From NCBI RefSeq assembly GCF_023016155.1, contig NZ_JALKBG010000009.1, positions 1 through 64,000 of the forward strand: a stretch of DNA of 64,000 nt. The letters run 5' to 3'. The notes under the pieces were generated by a model. The model saw nothing but the letters and a program-made list of their open reading frames with translations, searched no databases and had not been told where the DNA came from. Shown here piece after piece: positions 1 to 5,622 of this stretch (its first letter is position 1; each line of letters starts with the position of its first letter). The position numbers were made by a program, and so were the translations under genes. The stretch is from Aliiroseovarius sp. F20344. Its GTDB lineage: Bacteria; Pseudomonadota; Alphaproteobacteria; Rhodobacterales; Rhodobacteraceae.

Positions 1-13
1 TAGGAGGAATCCC

Positions 14-1126
14 ATGCGCACGCGAGCCGCCGTTGCCGTAGAGGCCGGAAAACCACTTGAGATTATGGAAGTGAACCTTGAAGGCCCGCGTGCCGGCGAG
101 GTTTTGGTTGAGATCAAGGCCACCGGCCTGTGTCACACCGACGAATTCACCCGTTCTGGCGACGATCCCGAGGGGATCTTCCCGGCCATTCTGGGCCACG
201 AAGGCGCAGGCGTCGTGATTGAAGTGGGCGAAGGTGTGACCTCACTCGAAGTCGGCGATCACGTGATCCCGCTCTACACCCCAGAATGTCGTGAATGCGA
301 CTATTGCCTGAACCCGAAAACCAACCTCTGCCAGTCGATCCGGTCAACGCAGGGTGCAGGCTTGCTGCCCGATGGCTCGACCCGTTTCTCGATGCTGGAT
401 GGCACGCCGATCCACCACTACATGGGCTGCTCGACCTTCGCCAATCACACCGTGGTGCCCGAGATTGCGCTGGCTAAGGTCCGCAAGGACGCACCGTTTG
501 ATAAGATCTGCTACATCGGCTGTGGCGTCACAACCGGCATTGGCGCGGTGATCAACACCGCCAAGGTTGAGATCGGGTCGACCGCTGTGGTCTTCGGTCT
601 GGGCGGCATTGGCCTGAACGTGATCCAGGGCCTGCGGATGGCCGGTGCGGATCAGATCGTGGGTGTGGACCTGAATGACAGCAAAGAAGAAATGGGGCGC
701 CACTTTGGCATGACCGATTTCGTGAACCCCTCGAAGGTGGATGGCGACATGGTGGCCCATCTGGTTGAACTGACGGGCGGTGGCGCGGATTACAGCTTTG
801 ATGCGACCGGCAATGTGAACGTGATGCGGCAAGCGCTGGAATGCGCCCACAAGGGCTGGGGGGAATCGATCATCATCGGCGTCGCGCCTGCAGGTGCCGA
901 GATCTCGACCCGCCCCTTCCAACTGGTCACCGGCCGCGTCTGGCGTGGCACGGCCTTTGGTGGCGCGTCGGGTCGGACGGACGTGCCCAAAATCGTCGAC
1001 TGGTACATGGACGGCAAAATCGAGATCGATCCGATGATCACTCACAAGCTGAGCCTTGATCAGATCAACGAAGGGTTTGACCTGATGCACAAAGGCGAAA
1101 GCATCCGCGCCGTGGTGGAATTCTAA
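14..1126 (+). CDS. adhI: S-(hydroxymethyl)glutathione dehydrogenase / class III alcohol dehydrogenase
   Basis: Oxidises S-hydroxymethylglutathione (the formaldehyde-glutathione adduct) to S-formylglutathione with NAD+ in the cytosol; the family also reduces S-nitrosoglutathione. The 370-residue protein has the full zinc-ADH layout: catalytic zinc ligands C40 (GLCHTDE) and H62/E63 (GHEGAG), four structural-zinc cysteines at 92, 95, 98 and 106, the second catalytic cysteine region near 170 (CYIGCGVTTG), and the NAD-binding GLGGIGLN just after. An AGGAGG-like ribosome site at 2-7 supports the ATG at 14. Its partner hydrolase fghA lies 7 kb downstream on the same strand, separated by an inserted mobile element and by mbfA, cupin, AEC and nnrS genes. 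The length is normal for the family. Confidence 0.95.
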   Translation: MRTRAAVAVEAGKPLEIMEVNLEGPRAGEVLVEIKATGLCHTDEFTRSGDDPEGIFPAILGHEGAGVVIEVGEGVTSLEVGDHVIPLYTPECRECDYCLNPKTNLCQSIRSTQGAGLLPDGSTRFSMLDGTPIHHYMGCSTFANHTVVPEIALAKVRKDAPFDKICYIGCGVTTGIGAVINTAKVEIGSTAVVFGLGGIGLNVIQGLRMAGADQIVGVDLNDSKEEMGRHFGMTDFVNPSKVDGDMVAHLVELTGGGADYSFDATGNVNVMRQALECAHKGWGESIIIGVAPAGAEISTRPFQLVTGRVWRGTAFGGASGRTDVPKIVDWYMDGKIEIDPMITHKLSLDQINEGFDLMHKGESIRAVVEF

Positions 1127-1150: not shown

Positions 1151-1164
1151 GGGGCCAAGGCCCC
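1151..1164. repeat. Left target-site duplication of the IS element (half of adhI terminator)
   Basis: The 14-base palindromic word GGGGCCAAGGCCCC occurs here and again at 4544-4557 in direct orientation, flanking the element's inverted repeats. Joining the two outer flanks at one copy rebuilds an A-tract, a perfect G5-CCAAGG-C5 hairpin and a T6 tract, which is a textbook rho-independent terminator just after adhI. The element therefore appears to have landed in that hairpin and duplicated 14 bp. The left copy now lacks the T tract. Confidence 0.75.
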
Positions 1165-1181
1165 CTCAGACCGCTGACAAA
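1165..1181 (+). repeat. Left terminal inverted repeat of IS element
   Basis: CTCAGACCGCTGACAAA; reverse complement of the right end at 4527-4543 except for one G/A difference. It directly abuts the left target duplication and is followed by a hairpin, mirroring the right end. Confidence 0.7.
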
Positions 1182-1219
1182 GGTCGGGCTTGCGTTTTCG
1201 CGGCCCGACCTTCTTTTTT
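1182..1219 (+). terminator. Rho-independent terminator inside left end of IS element
   Basis: GGTCGGG (1182-1188) pairs with CCCGACC (1204-1210), followed by TTCTTTTTT. It now serves as terminator for adhI, whose own terminator was split, and would stop outside transcription entering the element. Confidence 0.75.
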
Positions 1220-1346
1220 GCTGAAAATCAGATGTGCGCCTTATTCTTCAATTTTCATTCGGTTAGCTATGGGTAGCTTGTGCAAGTTTACCTTGCTAGC
1301 ATTTTTGCCCTAGGATCTTGATAACTAATTCAGGTTTGAGTTCCGA

Positions 1347-2966
1347 ATGCTTAAGATCACTCTCCGATATCTCCCTTCAATAATGGTGGCGGGAACGCTT
1401 CTAGTACTTTTTTTCCTGTTCAGTTTTTCAGACCGCGATGAATACAACAAATTTTCGACATGCAAGAACGAAACCTCTGCGCAATGTATAACAGATTTGG
1501 GGTTGGATCGCGTAGCGAGTGCTCGTTCTCTTCCGCCACATATGCGTGAAGTCGACATGTTGGCCCAGATGGATCGTATAGAAGATGCTTTCGCGCTGGA
1601 ACTGCGAATCCTGAGTGAAAAAGAGCGACCACCAAAGAACATAGAAGCATCCGCAAATCGCAGGCTTGCCAGTCACAGGATAGCCGCCCAAATTCGCAAG
1701 GGTAACAGCTTAGAGACCGCGATAGACCAAACACCATCTACAGACGCGGGTGTTCTTTGGATCAGCGCACTCGATTTGCTTGGGAGAAAGCCATACGGCC
1801 CGTTGATCAGCCCGACGTTGAAACCTGATAAGAGAACGCTTGAAATCGTTTCTGAGATTGCAGAACGCATTGCCAGGTTTGCTACAGAAGAAACAGAGCG
1901 CGCTCGAATAAGCCACCTTATCTATGCGGCGGAGTTGTACGCAGCACTCGGAAACCAGACTCGTGTGATCGAGTTATTAGGCAATCTCCCACAAGCTAAA
2001 AATCCTCACATAAACCTATCAGAAGACCTTTTGCGGCTCATTGGTCCACAGGAAGGGATGCATCTTTACCACAAGGCAGGCGGAAATAGGCCCCACATTC
2101 TTCTGACCGCGGCTTCGGCAGAAACAGATTTGATCCGCGCTGCCGACTACTTGGAAAGAGCGTTCAATGAGTATTCCACAGCAGATCGTCGCCCCGACTT
2201 GGATAGGATGGAACGCATCGTTTCCCTCGCTGCGGATCTTGGGCTGGAAGAGTTTGCGTTGCGATTGGCGCGCGCGGTTGCAGATCAAGCTCAAACAGCG
2301 CCTTCGAACTTTCCGGTGTTCCCACATCTCAATGCAGTGCGTGCACTTATGGCCGCCGGCGCTGATGAATCCGAAACTCGTGAGAGTCTGGTCCGTGCGG
2401 AAGAAGACTTCCCACAAAACGATCAAGAATACTTAGGTGTAGGCCTTGTAAGCGGCGCCATTTTTTGGGGAAGTTCGGGGCTTAAGGCGCAAGCGAGGCG
2501 CGAGTTCGCAACCCTGTCGGCGCGTCAGGGTGGGGTCGACGCAACGATCCAAATGATGGATGACATTGAACAACCCGTATTCGCTTGGAACGACATGCTA
2601 ACCCATGAAATTCCACTCGAAGCCTTGGATGAATTGTTTAATGCCGCAAGCGCTGTTCTTACGAGAGAAGAACTAGCTTATGTGAAGGCGCAGCATGCGC
2701 AGGACTTGCTGCTTTCTGGTGGGGCGGAAGAGCAGCTTTCTTGGGTAAAAGAAACCACAAAAGATGTTTTACGAGGTGAGCAGTTGGTTGGAGATAGGTC
2801 GGTTACGACTTATAGTACGCTGACGAGGATTGCAGCCAGGTTGGGCGATCAGGATAATCTGAAATTGGCGTTGAGGAGAATGGCTGATGCAGCTCTGGGT
2901 TCTAGAGAACCGAGTGATCTGATAACTGCCGGTTTCTATTGGTATCAAGCTGATAACATCCGCTAG
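1347..2966 (+). CDS. Membrane-anchored helical-repeat protein of unknown function (IS passenger)
   Basis: I do not recognise this 539-residue protein. It starts with a short basic segment and one hydrophobic helix (about residues 12-30, ending LVLFFLFSFSD), which is either an uncleaved signal anchor or a signal peptide. The rest is soluble, charged and almost entirely helix-forming, with Leu/Ala-rich amphipathic stretches such as LEEFALRLARAVADQ. That resembles an alpha-solenoid or TPR-like fold without a clean TPR consensus. The gene ends 112 bp before the transposase start, and both lie within the element's inverted repeats. It is visibly more A/T-rich and uses more A/T-ending codons than adhI or mbfA on either side, consistent with foreign origin. 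The start at 1347 is the first ATG of the frame; no strong ribosome site is seen, only TTGAG at 1336-1340. Whether it aids transposition, protects the host or is unrelated cargo cannot be told from sequence. Confidence 0.7.
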   Translation: MLKITLRYLPSIMVAGTLLVLFFLFSFSDRDEYNKFSTCKNETSAQCITDLGLDRVASARSLPPHMREVDMLAQMDRIEDAFALELRILSEKERPPKNIEASANRRLASHRIAAQIRKGNSLETAIDQTPSTDAGVLWISALDLLGRKPYGPLISPTLKPDKRTLEIVSEIAERIARFATEETERARISHLIYAAELYAALGNQTRVIELLGNLPQAKNPHINLSEDLLRLIGPQEGMHLYHKAGGNRPHILLTAASAETDLIRAADYLERAFNEYSTADRRPDLDRMERIVSLAADLGLEEFALRLARAVADQAQTAPSNFPVFPHLNAVRALMAAGADESETRESLVRAEEDFPQNDQEYLGVGLVSGAIFWGSSGLKAQARREFATLSARQGGVDATIQMMDDIEQPVFAWNDMLTHEIPLEALDELFNAASAVLTREELAYVKAQHAQDLLLSGGAEEQLSWVKETTKDVLRGEQLVGDRSVTTYSTLTRIAARLGDQDNLKLALRRMADAALGSREPSDLITAGFYWYQADNIR

Positions 2967-3078
2967 AGCGGACGTTGGGTTCTAACACATCTGTGCTCAC
3001 CTCATGCGGCCCCGCCACCCTTCAACGTTCTCTGAATCTCCCCTTGATCCGCCGCCTTTGTGCTGATTCAATCTTATA

Positions 3079-4446
3079 ATGTTGAAGAGACTAACAGCCC
3101 GCCAGACCGAGCTTGAGATGGTCACGCTTGAAAGCCTGGTGCCCGCCGATCACTTGTTGCGCAAAGTGGAAGCAGCGATTGATTATAGCTTCATCCGCGA
3201 ACTGACTGAGGGGCTTTACTGCCTCGACAATGGTAGGCCGCCGATCGCGCCGGAGACCTTGTTCAAGGCATTGTTCATCGGCTACCTGTTTGGCATCCGA
3301 TCAGAGCGCCAGTTGATGCGCGAGATCGAGGTGAATGTGGCCTATCGCTGGTTCCTAGGGTTGCGTCTGACGGACAAGGTGTTTGATGCCTCGACCTTCA
3401 GCCAGAACCGGCGTCGTCGCTTTGATGGCACAGACATCGCCCAGCAGATCTTCGATCACATTGTGGAACAGGCCATTGAGTTAGGTCTTGCAGATGGGAC
3501 AGTGCTCTATACGGACAGCACCCATCTCAAAGCCTCGGCCAACAAGAGCAAGTTCGATTCCGAGATGGTGGCGAAATCCAGAGCTGCCTATTGGGATGAT
3601 CTGGATGCGGCAATCTCGGCCGATCGGATAGCACATGGCAAGAAGCCGCTAAAGCCCAAGCCACGTGAGGCGGAGATCAAGGAAACGCGCGTGAGCCGCA
3701 CCGATCCCGATGCGGGCTATATGGTGAGGGACGGCAAGCCCAAGGGGTTCTTCTATCTCGATCACCGAACTGTAGACAGCAAGCACAGCATCATCACCGA
3801 CACCCATGTCAAAGCTGGCAATGTGCATGACAGCATCCCTTATATCGAGCGGCTGGATCGGCAGCGGCGTCGCTTCGATTTGGATGTGAAGGCGGTCGGA
3901 CTGGATGCGGGATATGCCAATGCACCCATTGCACAGGGTTTGGAGGAGCGCGGCATTCTGGGCGTCACAGCGTATCTCCGGCCTGCTGGTCCGAAGAACA
4001 CGTTGCGCAAACGACAGTTCGAATATGATCCGAAGGCAGACGTCTATCGCTGTCCAAATGGGCAAGAGCTGCCATACTCGACAACCGGTCGGGGTGGCTA
4101 TCGCTACTATCATTCGGATCCAGAGAAATGTCGCGAGTGCCCGCTCCTGTCTTCTTGCACCAAGAACGCCAAAGCACAGAAAACCCTCACCCGCCATGTC
4201 TGGGCCGATGCCCGAGAGCGTGTGGATGCTCACAGGAAAACAGACTGGGGCAAGCGCATCTACGACCGGCGAAAGGAAACCGTCGAGCGATCCTTCGCCG
4301 ATGCCAAACAACTCTTCGGACACCGATACGCCCGCTATCGAGGGCTCACCGGTGTCAAATGGCAATGCCTCCTCGCCGCAACCGCCCAGAACATCAAGAA
4401 AATCGCAATGGTCATGGACCAAACGACCACAACCAGCCCCGCATGA
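3079..4446 (+). CDS. IS1182-family transposase (DDE)
   Basis: 455 residues, full length. The N-terminal region (about 1-100) has the DUF772 signature of this family (LVPADHLLRKVEA, LFKALFIGYLFGIRSERQL). DDE residues can be placed at D146 (YTDSTHLKASANKSKF), D276 (GLDAGYANAP) and E403 (RKETVERSFADAK). A cysteine cluster in the insertion domain (CPNGQ, then KCRECPLLSSC, about residues 335-360) looks like the family's zinc-binding region. The frame is uninterrupted, so the enzyme may be active. It is followed by a terminator hairpin that overlaps the right inverted repeat. Confidence 0.93.
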   Translation: MLKRLTARQTELEMVTLESLVPADHLLRKVEAAIDYSFIRELTEGLYCLDNGRPPIAPETLFKALFIGYLFGIRSERQLMREIEVNVAYRWFLGLRLTDKVFDASTFSQNRRRRFDGTDIAQQIFDHIVEQAIELGLADGTVLYTDSTHLKASANKSKFDSEMVAKSRAAYWDDLDAAISADRIAHGKKPLKPKPREAEIKETRVSRTDPDAGYMVRDGKPKGFFYLDHRTVDSKHSIITDTHVKAGNVHDSIPYIERLDRQRRRFDLDVKAVGLDAGYANAPIAQGLEERGILGVTAYLRPAGPKNTLRKRQFEYDPKADVYRCPNGQELPYSTTGRGGYRYYHSDPEKCRECPLLSSCTKNAKAQKTLTRHVWADARERVDAHRKTDWGKRIYDRRKETVERSFADAKQLFGHRYARYRGLTGVKWQCLLAATAQNIKKIAMVMDQTTTTSPA

Positions 4447-4502
4447 GGGGCTGGGCAACCGTTTATCTCGCCAAATCAACTCCTGCCAGATCACCAAAAA
4501 AG

Positions 4503-4530
4503 AAAACCCCGCTCAAATGAGCGGGGTTTG
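4503..4530 (+). terminator. Transposase terminator at right end of IS element
   Basis: CCCCGCTC (4507-4514), loop AAAT, GAGCGGGG (4519-4526), preceded by AAAA and followed by TTTG. The terminal TTTG is also the inner part of the right inverted repeat. Confidence 0.75.
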
Positions 4531-4543
4531 TCAGTGGTCTGAG
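4527..4543 (-). repeat. Right terminal inverted repeat of IS element
   Basis: TTTGTCAGTGGTCTGAG; its reverse complement matches 1165-1181 at 16 of 17 positions. It abuts the right copy of the 14-bp target duplication. Confidence 0.7.
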
Positions 4544-4557
4544 GGGGCCAAGGCCCC
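4544..4557. repeat. Right target-site duplication of the IS element
   Basis: GGGGCCAAGGCCCC, a direct repeat of 1151-1164. Here it keeps the T6 tract (4559-4564), so the right flank is still a working terminator hairpin (4543-4564) reading toward mbfA. Confidence 0.75.
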
Positions 4558-4589
4558 CTTTTTTATTTCAGGCGCGACAGAATGTAAGC

Positions 4590-4617
4590 TTGCCTTCCCG
4601 TCCGAAAGCCATAAATT
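4590..4617 (+). promoter_or_regulatory. Predicted mbfA promoter
   Basis: TTGCCT (4590-4595) and TAAATT (4612-4617) are separated by 16 bp, and the Irr box overlaps the -10 element. The IS right end lies only 46 bp upstream, so the core promoter was left intact. Confidence 0.5.
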
Positions 4618-4630
4618 AGAACCATTCTAA
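4616..4630. promoter_or_regulatory. Irr box (iron control element) upstream of mbfA
   Basis: TTAGAACCATTCTAA is a perfect 15-bp palindrome, 14 bp before the mbfA ATG. It matches the known Irr/ICE core TTAGAA-N3-TTCTAA of alphaproteobacteria. Its overlap with the -10 region fits repression by Irr under iron limitation, as established for mbfA in rhizobia. Confidence 0.8.
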
Positions 4631-4644
4631 TTCAGGAGCTTTCA

Positions 4645-5622
4645 ATGCTGTCCGCCACTCTGCACCGCCGCCGTTTCTCGGACCTGTCGGAACAAGAAAT
4701 CCTCGCACTCGCGATCTCGAACGAAGAAGACGATGCGCGGATTTACCGGCAGTATGCTGAACACCTTCGTGAGGAGTTTCCCTCGTCCGCAAAGGTATTC
4801 GACGGCATGGCCGAGGAAGAGGACGAGCATCGCCGCCTTTTGATCGAAGCGCATCAGGCGCGGTTTGGGGATGTGATCCCCCTAATCCGGCGCGAACATG
4901 TGGCGGGGTTCTATGCGCGTCGCCCGGTCTGGCTTGTCGAAAATCTTGGCCTTGAAACCATTCGAGGTGAAGCGCGCGAGATGGAGCGTCAGGCCGAGCA
5001 GTTCTATCGCAAAGCTGCCGATCGTACGTCGGATGCAAACACCCGTAAGCTTTTGGGCGATCTGGCCGCCGCCGAAGCGGACCACGCTCATACGGCGGGC
5101 GATCTTGAAGCAAAGCATCTAGACGATGCCACGCGCGAAACAGAAGACGACGCTGCCCACCGTCAATTCATCCTGACATGGGTGCAGCCAGGGTTGGCGG
5201 GACTGATGGATGGATCAGTGTCCACACTCGCGCCGATCTTTGCGACCGCTTTCGCCACGCAAGACACGCACACCACTTTTCTGGTAGGCCTTGCTGCCAG
5301 CGTAGGCGCCGGGATTTCCATGGGATTCACGGAAGCGGCCTCGGATGACGGAGAGCTGTCAGGGCGCGGCAGCCCGGTCAAACGCGGCTTTGCCTCGGGC
5401 ATCATGACCACACTGGGCGGACTGGGGCACGCCCTGCCCTATCTGATCACCGATTTCTGGACCGCCACGACCATCGCGATCCTTGTTGTCTTCGTAGAGC
5501 TTTGGGCGATTGTCTGGATTCAAAACCGGTTTATGCAGACCCCGTTCATGCGCGCGACTCTTCAGGTCGTGGTCGGCGGCGCGCTGGTCTTTGCAGCTGG
5601 CGCCATTATCGGCGGTGGTTAG
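4645..5622 (+). CDS. mbfA: Membrane-bound ferritin / iron exporter MbfA
   Basis: Exports iron from the cytoplasm in related alphaproteobacteria and protects against iron plus peroxide stress. The 325-residue protein is a fusion. An N-terminal ferritin-like diiron domain (about 1-145) has candidate ligands in SNEEDD (27-28), EEEDEHRR (57-62) and a second EAREMERQAEQF / AEADHAHT pair. A C-terminal VIT1/CCC1-type transmembrane domain (about 170-325) contains MDGSVSTLAP and GISMGFTEAASDDGELSGRG. The AGGAG at 4634-4638 fixes the start at 4645. An Irr box lies directly upstream. The length is normal for the family. Confidence 0.92.
   Translation: MLSATLHRRRFSDLSEQEILALAISNEEDDARIYRQYAEHLREEFPSSAKVFDGMAEEEDEHRRLLIEAHQARFGDVIPLIRREHVAGFYARRPVWLVENLGLETIRGEAREMERQAEQFYRKAADRTSDANTRKLLGDLAAAEADHAHTAGDLEAKHLDDATRETEDDAAHRQFILTWVQPGLAGLMDGSVSTLAPIFATAFATQDTHTTFLVGLAASVGAGISMGFTEAASDDGELSGRGSPVKRGFASGIMTTLGGLGHALPYLITDFWTATTIAILVVFVELWAIVWIQNRFMQTPFMRATLQVVVGGALVFAAGAIIGGG

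Follow-up and report, generated by a model that had tools for sequence, protein, structure and literature searches.

We analysed a 64,000-nucleotide stretch of DNA from Aliiroseovarius sp. F20344 (the window), in which an insertion sequence (IS) with an additional gene lies between adhI (14-1126, plus strand), coding for a class III alcohol / S-(hydroxymethyl)glutathione dehydrogenase (TIGR02818, 605 bits), and the iron exporter gene mbfA (4645-5622, plus strand; NF045676, 561 bits). The element spans 1167-4541 (3,375 bp), is bounded by 15-bp inverted ends with one mismatch and contains two intact plus-strand open reading frames (ORFs), one of 539 codons (1347-2966), the cargo gene, and one of 455 codons (3079-4446) coding for a transposase. 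Its left terminal inverted repeat, CAGACCGCTGACAAA (1167-1181, plus strand), has a core that is invariant across 32 aligned left ends, and its right one (4527-4541) reads CAGACCACTGACAAA on the minus strand. Immediately outside these ends stand two exact direct copies of an 18-nt palindrome, AGGGGGCCAAGGCCCCCT, at 1149-1166 and 4542-4559; the right copy still has a T tract after it and is matched by a terminator scan at 4541-4560. The sequence-only reading from which we started had described a segment of 3.38 kb between inverted repeats, flanked by a 14-bp duplication of the palindrome. Inverted ends, duplicated palindrome and both ORFs were confirmed in the sequence, but the ends had to be trimmed to 15 bp, with the element boundary set at CAGAC...GTCTG by comparison with relatives, and the duplication, although exact, is 18 bp long.

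The 455-residue DDE transposase matches the profile NF033551 with 492 bits (cut-off 270) as well as the Pfam families DDE_Tnp_1_6 and DUF772. Judged by this profile match and by the terminal repeats that it has in common with relatives, the element is a member of the IS1182 family, as previously assigned. Its transposase gene is the only one of its kind found in the genome, and no copy with a left end just before 3079 accompanies it. In the 3.36 Mb of this genome, the end consensus finds only the two element termini at 0 mismatches, and three further matches at 1 mismatch, compared to two for a reversed control pattern. Within 1151-4560 the two termini alone have fewer than four mismatches to the end, and between cargo gene and transposase (2960-3080) there is no end-like 15-mer at up to five mismatches, which bears out the earlier statement that no second inverted repeat separates the two genes. 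A composite transposon, with two IS copies around the cargo, was rejected, as there is a single such transposase in the genome and there are only two ends. A single pair of ends thus encloses the transposase gene and a second, apparently unrelated gene, and two exact copies of the adhI hairpin flank the whole.

For the host site we compared 21 genomes of the genus, our own included; two of the 20 sisters are less than 90% complete. DNA resembling adhI is present in 21 of the 21, and the adhI site was read in seven sister genomes. The insert is absent at all seven. Five of them (L102-L106) have adhI, then a GGGGGC..GCCCCC hairpin with T tract, then mbfA, and the other two (L107, L108) have a different terminator-like hairpin between these genes. 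The left target copy of the window has its uninterrupted counterpart here, so that the proposed insertion inside the adhI terminator and the empty sites sought in sister strains were both found. Neither the cargo gene (at E ≤ 0.001) nor the transposase (at E ≤ 1e-60) was detected in any of the 20 sister genomes, and none had the cargo gene without the transposase. Because the sister sites are uninterrupted and neither gene was found in these genomes, the adhI terminator most likely predates the insertion, with cargo gene and transposase both newcomers. That a host gene came to lie beside an IS, with the outer left repeat and palindrome copy being unrelated to it, has next to no probability: we found no support for such a coincidence, the exact 18-bp duplication is present at both outer ends, and the uninterrupted sister sites without the cargo gene refute it.

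The adhI gene occurs at least twice in the genome of strain F20344: contig C6 ends in a 97% copy, and window positions 1-819 recur with 100% identity at the ends of contigs C8 and C2 (L098, L099 and L100 denote the adhI copies of this genome). The window contig probably begins at adhI due to this repeat, and the region upstream of adhI is uncertain. As an empty site the second adhI copy was uninformative, its downstream region being unrelated.

Relatives of the transposase came from four sources: 48 loci were taken from genome contigs, 8 loci from two genomes of a class-level sample, 1 locus from viral contigs, and the remainder from 11 of 41 plasmid records. The resulting set of 68 loci consists of the window, 47 of the 48 genome-contig loci, the 8 class loci (own locus excluded), the viral locus and the 11 plasmid loci; L027 lies outside this set and was examined apart. 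Since many of the 68 are contig ends, only 31 have both element ends. The distance from left end to transposase start is 53-76 nt in 65 of the 68 loci, and L027 and L119, the latter also examined apart, have short leaders as well. Three loci have longer leaders: the window with 1,912 nt, L029 with 498 nt and the distant L016 (56% identity) with 169 nt. The cargo gene sits where IS1182-type relatives usually have a leader of about 53 nt only, in agreement with the earlier view that such elements normally hold just the transposase. As the relatives, at up to 83% identity, mostly have their left end just before the transposase, the cargo was, on this comparison, gained in a single lineage and does not characterise the IS1182 family.

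The leader of the relatives consists of the 15-bp end and a hairpin; in most cases a short T tract follows, with GATTCAAT directly ahead of the start codon. In the window these pieces are split, with end, hairpin and TTCTTTTTTGCTGA at 1167-1224, TGCTGATTCAAT at 3061-3072, and the cargo segment, within what would be the ancestral leader, between them at 1225-3060. The six letters TGCTGA stand on either side of this segment (1219-1224, plus strand, and 3061-3066). The putative leader remnant adjoining the transposase start, TGCTGATTCAATCTTATA (3061-3078, plus strand), includes TGATTCAAT, the usual inner leader end in relatives. Left end and remnant thus sum to one ordinary leader, and a simple insertion needs fewer steps for this outcome than the collapse of a larger structure, be it a pair of IS copies around the cargo, one of which was largely deleted while its partner lost the inner end, or an element with an alternative outer end whose inner end was lost later. 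An outer end of the latter kind, upstream of a gene, is described for TnSha1 (PMC4923244, in the text available), and beyond its repeat the left end of the window does resemble its own right end, with a 14-nt stretch that is 93% complementary. Given the ordinary sum of the leader pieces and the lack of a third end between cargo and transposase, we regard a collapse of either form as unlikely.

The closest relative found, L029, belongs to an uncultured Litoreibacter and has a transposase 83% identical to that of the window. In a transposase tree of 19 rows, one of them (L019, with 11 internal stops) a degraded outlier, the two are sisters with support 99/97; the next relatives, L119 and L011, are both short-leadered. 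In wider searches, at E ≤ 1e-100 the transposase was found in its own genome alone among 394 family genomes, and at E ≤ 1e-130 in three of 385 class genomes, own included. The L029 element follows the L13 and S9 ribosomal protein genes and is flanked by an exact 26-bp hairpin duplication. Its cargo slot is occupied by a 118-codon gene with a YCII domain (L029 positions 4561-4917), on the minus strand and opposite to the transposase; one copy of this YCII-family gene was found in the genome. The cargo segments of window and L029 are dissimilar except for the end repeat and the 10-mer CTTGATCCGC, other blast matches being 9-10 nt long. This 10-mer stands in the same register upstream of the CTGATTCAA leader remnant in both elements, where 8 of 2,000 shuffles score as high, and upstream of it the identity is near background. 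The shared 10-mer hints, weakly, at a common interrupted ancestor of the two elements.

These observations bear on a scenario in two steps, in which a plain IS1182 element inserted into the adhI terminator and received the cargo in its leader there, without the unit ever moving as one. A later insertion would suit the TGCTGA micro-repeat, and no other copy with the same two genes was found. Yet cargo in the same slot also occurs in another organism, L029, with the shared 10-mer as a faint trace of a common interrupted ancestor, and the plain IS was found in none of the 20 sister genomes; we therefore consider an assembly in place improbable.

The cargo protein (539 aa) had no match in Pfam, NCBIfam, PHROGs or PADLOC. 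Relatives of its gene were found in 8 of 394 family genomes (own included, several of them weak) and, by profile, in 6 of 390 order genomes (own included, two apparently broken), whereas 72,556 plasmid records yielded no match and viral contigs none that could be confirmed. Four full-length proteins were aligned; the relatives are 36-41% identical, and two cysteines near the N-terminus are invariant. A single-sequence structure model consists of helices throughout; its N-terminal helix, hydrophobic in sequence, falls in a stretch of low confidence, and the mean predicted local distance difference test score (pLDDT) is 62.8. Fold searches with this model returned helical-repeat proteins (best E 6.3e-6); an assignment to one of their families was dropped, as the query-normalised template modelling (TM) scores were 0.08-0.28 among the 50 matches listed. 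The GC content at third codon positions is 48.7% in the cargo gene, compared to 74.1% in adhI, 66.0% in mbfA and 66.7% in the transposase gene. We read the cargo as an acquired gene for a putative membrane-anchored helical-repeat protein, which may simply be a passenger. Near the homologues, no IS ends were found at up to two mismatches in L109-L112, which have 3-mismatch matches only, or in L125-L129. The homologues L127, L130 (genome G881) and L128 (genome G892) appear broken, either as two pieces in different frames or by one internal stop, which suggests that the gene is dispensable there.

Duplication of an entire palindrome, as at adhI, is usual for this group of elements. An exact duplication of an 18-28 bp palindrome flanks 22 of the 31 two-ended loci and two more have a 26-bp duplication with one mismatch, which documents a target rule: in 24 of 31 loci, a whole terminator-like hairpin is duplicated. 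At least five T occur in the 10 nt beyond the palindrome in 18 of the 22 exact duplications, compared to 3.8% of 4,400 random 10-mers, and at least five A in the 10 nt before it in 20 of them. Across all 68 loci, 55 have a perfect stem of at least 6 bp in the 30 nt to the left of the element, compared to 3.2% of 3,400 random 30-mers. With T beyond and A before, most of the duplicated palindromes resemble bidirectional intrinsic terminators, and by its flanks the window element is among those with a palindromic target. In the open-access literature we found nothing joining IS1182 with the term 'intrinsic terminator'. Palindromic targets of some IS1182 members were reportedly noted by Siguier et al., as cited in PMC4923244 and PMC5678879. 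If terminators are targeted, IS1182 would be expected to be over-represented between convergent genes, and it is listed among the families for which this is the case (PMC9208149, in the part available).

Some individual loci deserve mention. In Dechloromonas denitrificans (L020, L021, L022), the left and right flanking hairpins are rotated cyclically among three IS copies, which recombination between copies, or joining during assembly, would explain better than a different target. In two Aminobacter plasmids (L074, L075) the IS occupies what is apparently one and the same terminator, flanked by kynU and an ABC transporter gene, but its orientation is reversed from one plasmid to the other; this looks like two insertions into one site, or an inversion. 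The same palindrome, cacggcctatgaggccgtg, holds the IS in Nitrospirillum viridazoti (L013), where no T tract follows it, and in a viral contig (L066); the target here is a palindrome other than a terminator, perhaps within a prophage.

Both ends of the window element carry a terminator-like hairpin of their own, with the T tract pointing inward. The left one (1182-1219, plus strand), followed by UUCUUUUUU, folds with -23 kcal/mol (z -4.85) and the right one (4494-4529, minus strand) with -20.2 kcal/mol (z -5.47); a simple terminator scan reports the right one only. The left hairpin has a counterpart in relatives, with paired changes. In an alignment of 32 chosen rows (31 distinct left ends), in which the longer hairpin of the window itself is poorly aligned, pairing is kept in 85.5% of cells, compared to 78.2% in shuffles, and 21 cells are changed on both sides, compared to 6.7, under a shuffle control that ignores relatedness. 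Sliding the pairing partners by 1-3 columns gives 50-78%. The right ends were aligned in 13 rows. From these features we infer that the end hairpins would stop transcription coming in from outside, replacing the host terminator whose T tract was displaced.

Taken together, we consider it likely that a single IS1182-family element turned into a transporter IS when a cargo gene entered its leader, between the left-end terminator and the transposase. The transposase would recognise a hairpin-forming palindrome and join the 3' ends of the element at the outer 5' feet of this palindrome, whereupon repair would copy the entire hairpin to both sides, as in outcome 6b of the model for IS1272 (PMC5678879, as far as available). 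The upstream palindrome copy would thereby lose its T tract, but the inward terminator-like hairpin of the left end would come to lie within about 55 nt of it, while the downstream copy would retain its T tract. As transcription should then still be stopped on both sides, the insertion would be nearly harmless. The cargo, foreign in composition, would have been inserted downstream of the left-end T tract and ahead of the transposase start, which left a TGCTGA on either flank. This most likely happened while the element still resided elsewhere, so that the cargo came to adhI along with it.

Several observations weigh against parts of this reconstruction. A second copy of the two-gene unit was found neither in the genome itself nor in the 394 family, 390 order or 21 genus genomes, the plasmids or the viral contigs, which leaves room for a cargo that joined an IS already resident at adhI. 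With no more than 6 nt, the TGCTGA micro-repeat could be a chance match. Upstream of the cargo gene a scan detected no promoter-like site (2 hits in the region, with 2.5 expected), which leaves its expression unsupported. As to the target, seven of the 31 two-ended loci lack a duplication (L011, L012, L018, L020, L021, L022, L059), four of the 22 exactly duplicated palindromes have no T tract beyond them, and the 31 loci are non-independent, several coming from one genome. Moreover, in the available part of PMC3281130, ISPse1, an IS1182-family element of Paracoccus, is listed with the value 4 in what is presumably the target-duplication column, so that the palindrome rule would not be family-wide.

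One may go further and envisage an IS1182 lineage that permanently keeps a place for cargo behind its left-end terminator and ahead of the transposase. The gene in this place would be subject to exchange, with one for a helical-repeat membrane protein in the window and one of the YCII family, on the opposite strand, in L029. The end terminators would both insulate the element and stand in for the split host terminator, making it a minimal unit transposon adapted to harmless landing in terminators. We offer this as a tentative idea, rather doubtful at present.

The uninterrupted sister sites and the different cargo in the closest relative indicate that gene uptake by IS1182 elements is possible outside staphylococci too, and that it requires neither a second IS copy nor a retained inner end. 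The presence of a terminator on both sides afterwards suggests a reason why such insertions are tolerated. The arrangement as a whole suggests how IS elements might gain cargo while doing little harm to their landing site.

The transporter IS (tIS) concept describes a passenger unrelated to transposition between the ends of an IS (PMC3129680, PMC9330008, in the text available). The structure of the window element fits this definition, with the cargo ORF (1347-2966) inside the element (1167-4541), and here the sequence-only reading, which had proposed the term, stands as regards a passenger gene enclosed by a single pair of ends. That IS and cargo move together is deduced from the duplication at the outer ends and the empty sister sites. 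The tIS ISDsp3 (PMC7986276) differs in belonging to the IS6 family, and the available portions of these three sources contain no IS1182-family tIS with a terminator duplication. A cargo-bearing IS1182 element is as an idea already known, from TnSha1 (PMC4923244) and TnCO-1 (PMC12056078), and is an uncommon arrangement; passengers of IS1182 are discussed in PMC12056078 with reference to the TnSha1 work, and Tn5405 is flanked by two IS1182 copies (PMC9484755). The sources named in this comparison are cited for those parts of their text that were available.

TnSha1 (IS1272 + sh-fabI, Staphylococcus; PMC4923244) resembles the window element in having an IS1182-family transposase with one passenger ahead of it and in inserting into hairpins, several of which are confirmed gene terminators. 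Unlike the window element, which has two, it possesses three end repeats, the outer IRL' and both IS ends (PMC4923244, PMC5678879). On insertion it removes a portion of the hairpin that it targets and duplicates nothing (PMC4923244), whereas the window element duplicates the whole hairpin. TnSha1 has been reported in 133 complete or partial elements; of the window unit one copy is known. We ruled out that the window holds an element of the TnSha1 type, since it has no inner end and shows an exact 18-bp duplication rather than a blunt hairpin deletion. TnCO-1 of Thermoanaerobacter kivui (PMC12056078) is similar in that a single IS1182-like transposase is thought to move neighbouring genes, but it forms an extrachromosomal circle of 86 kb that derives from two loci and has a presumed alternative right end, unlike a compact element of two genes in a terminator. 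IS1272 itself (PMC5678879) is, like the window element, a family member with palindromic targets, yet it replaces or deletes the stem-loop without duplicating it (PMC4923244, PMC5678879). Stem-loop duplication is given as another outcome in the model in figure 13 of PMC5678879, and it is this outcome that the group of the window element mostly shows, which makes it testable and bears on how single ISs become transposons.

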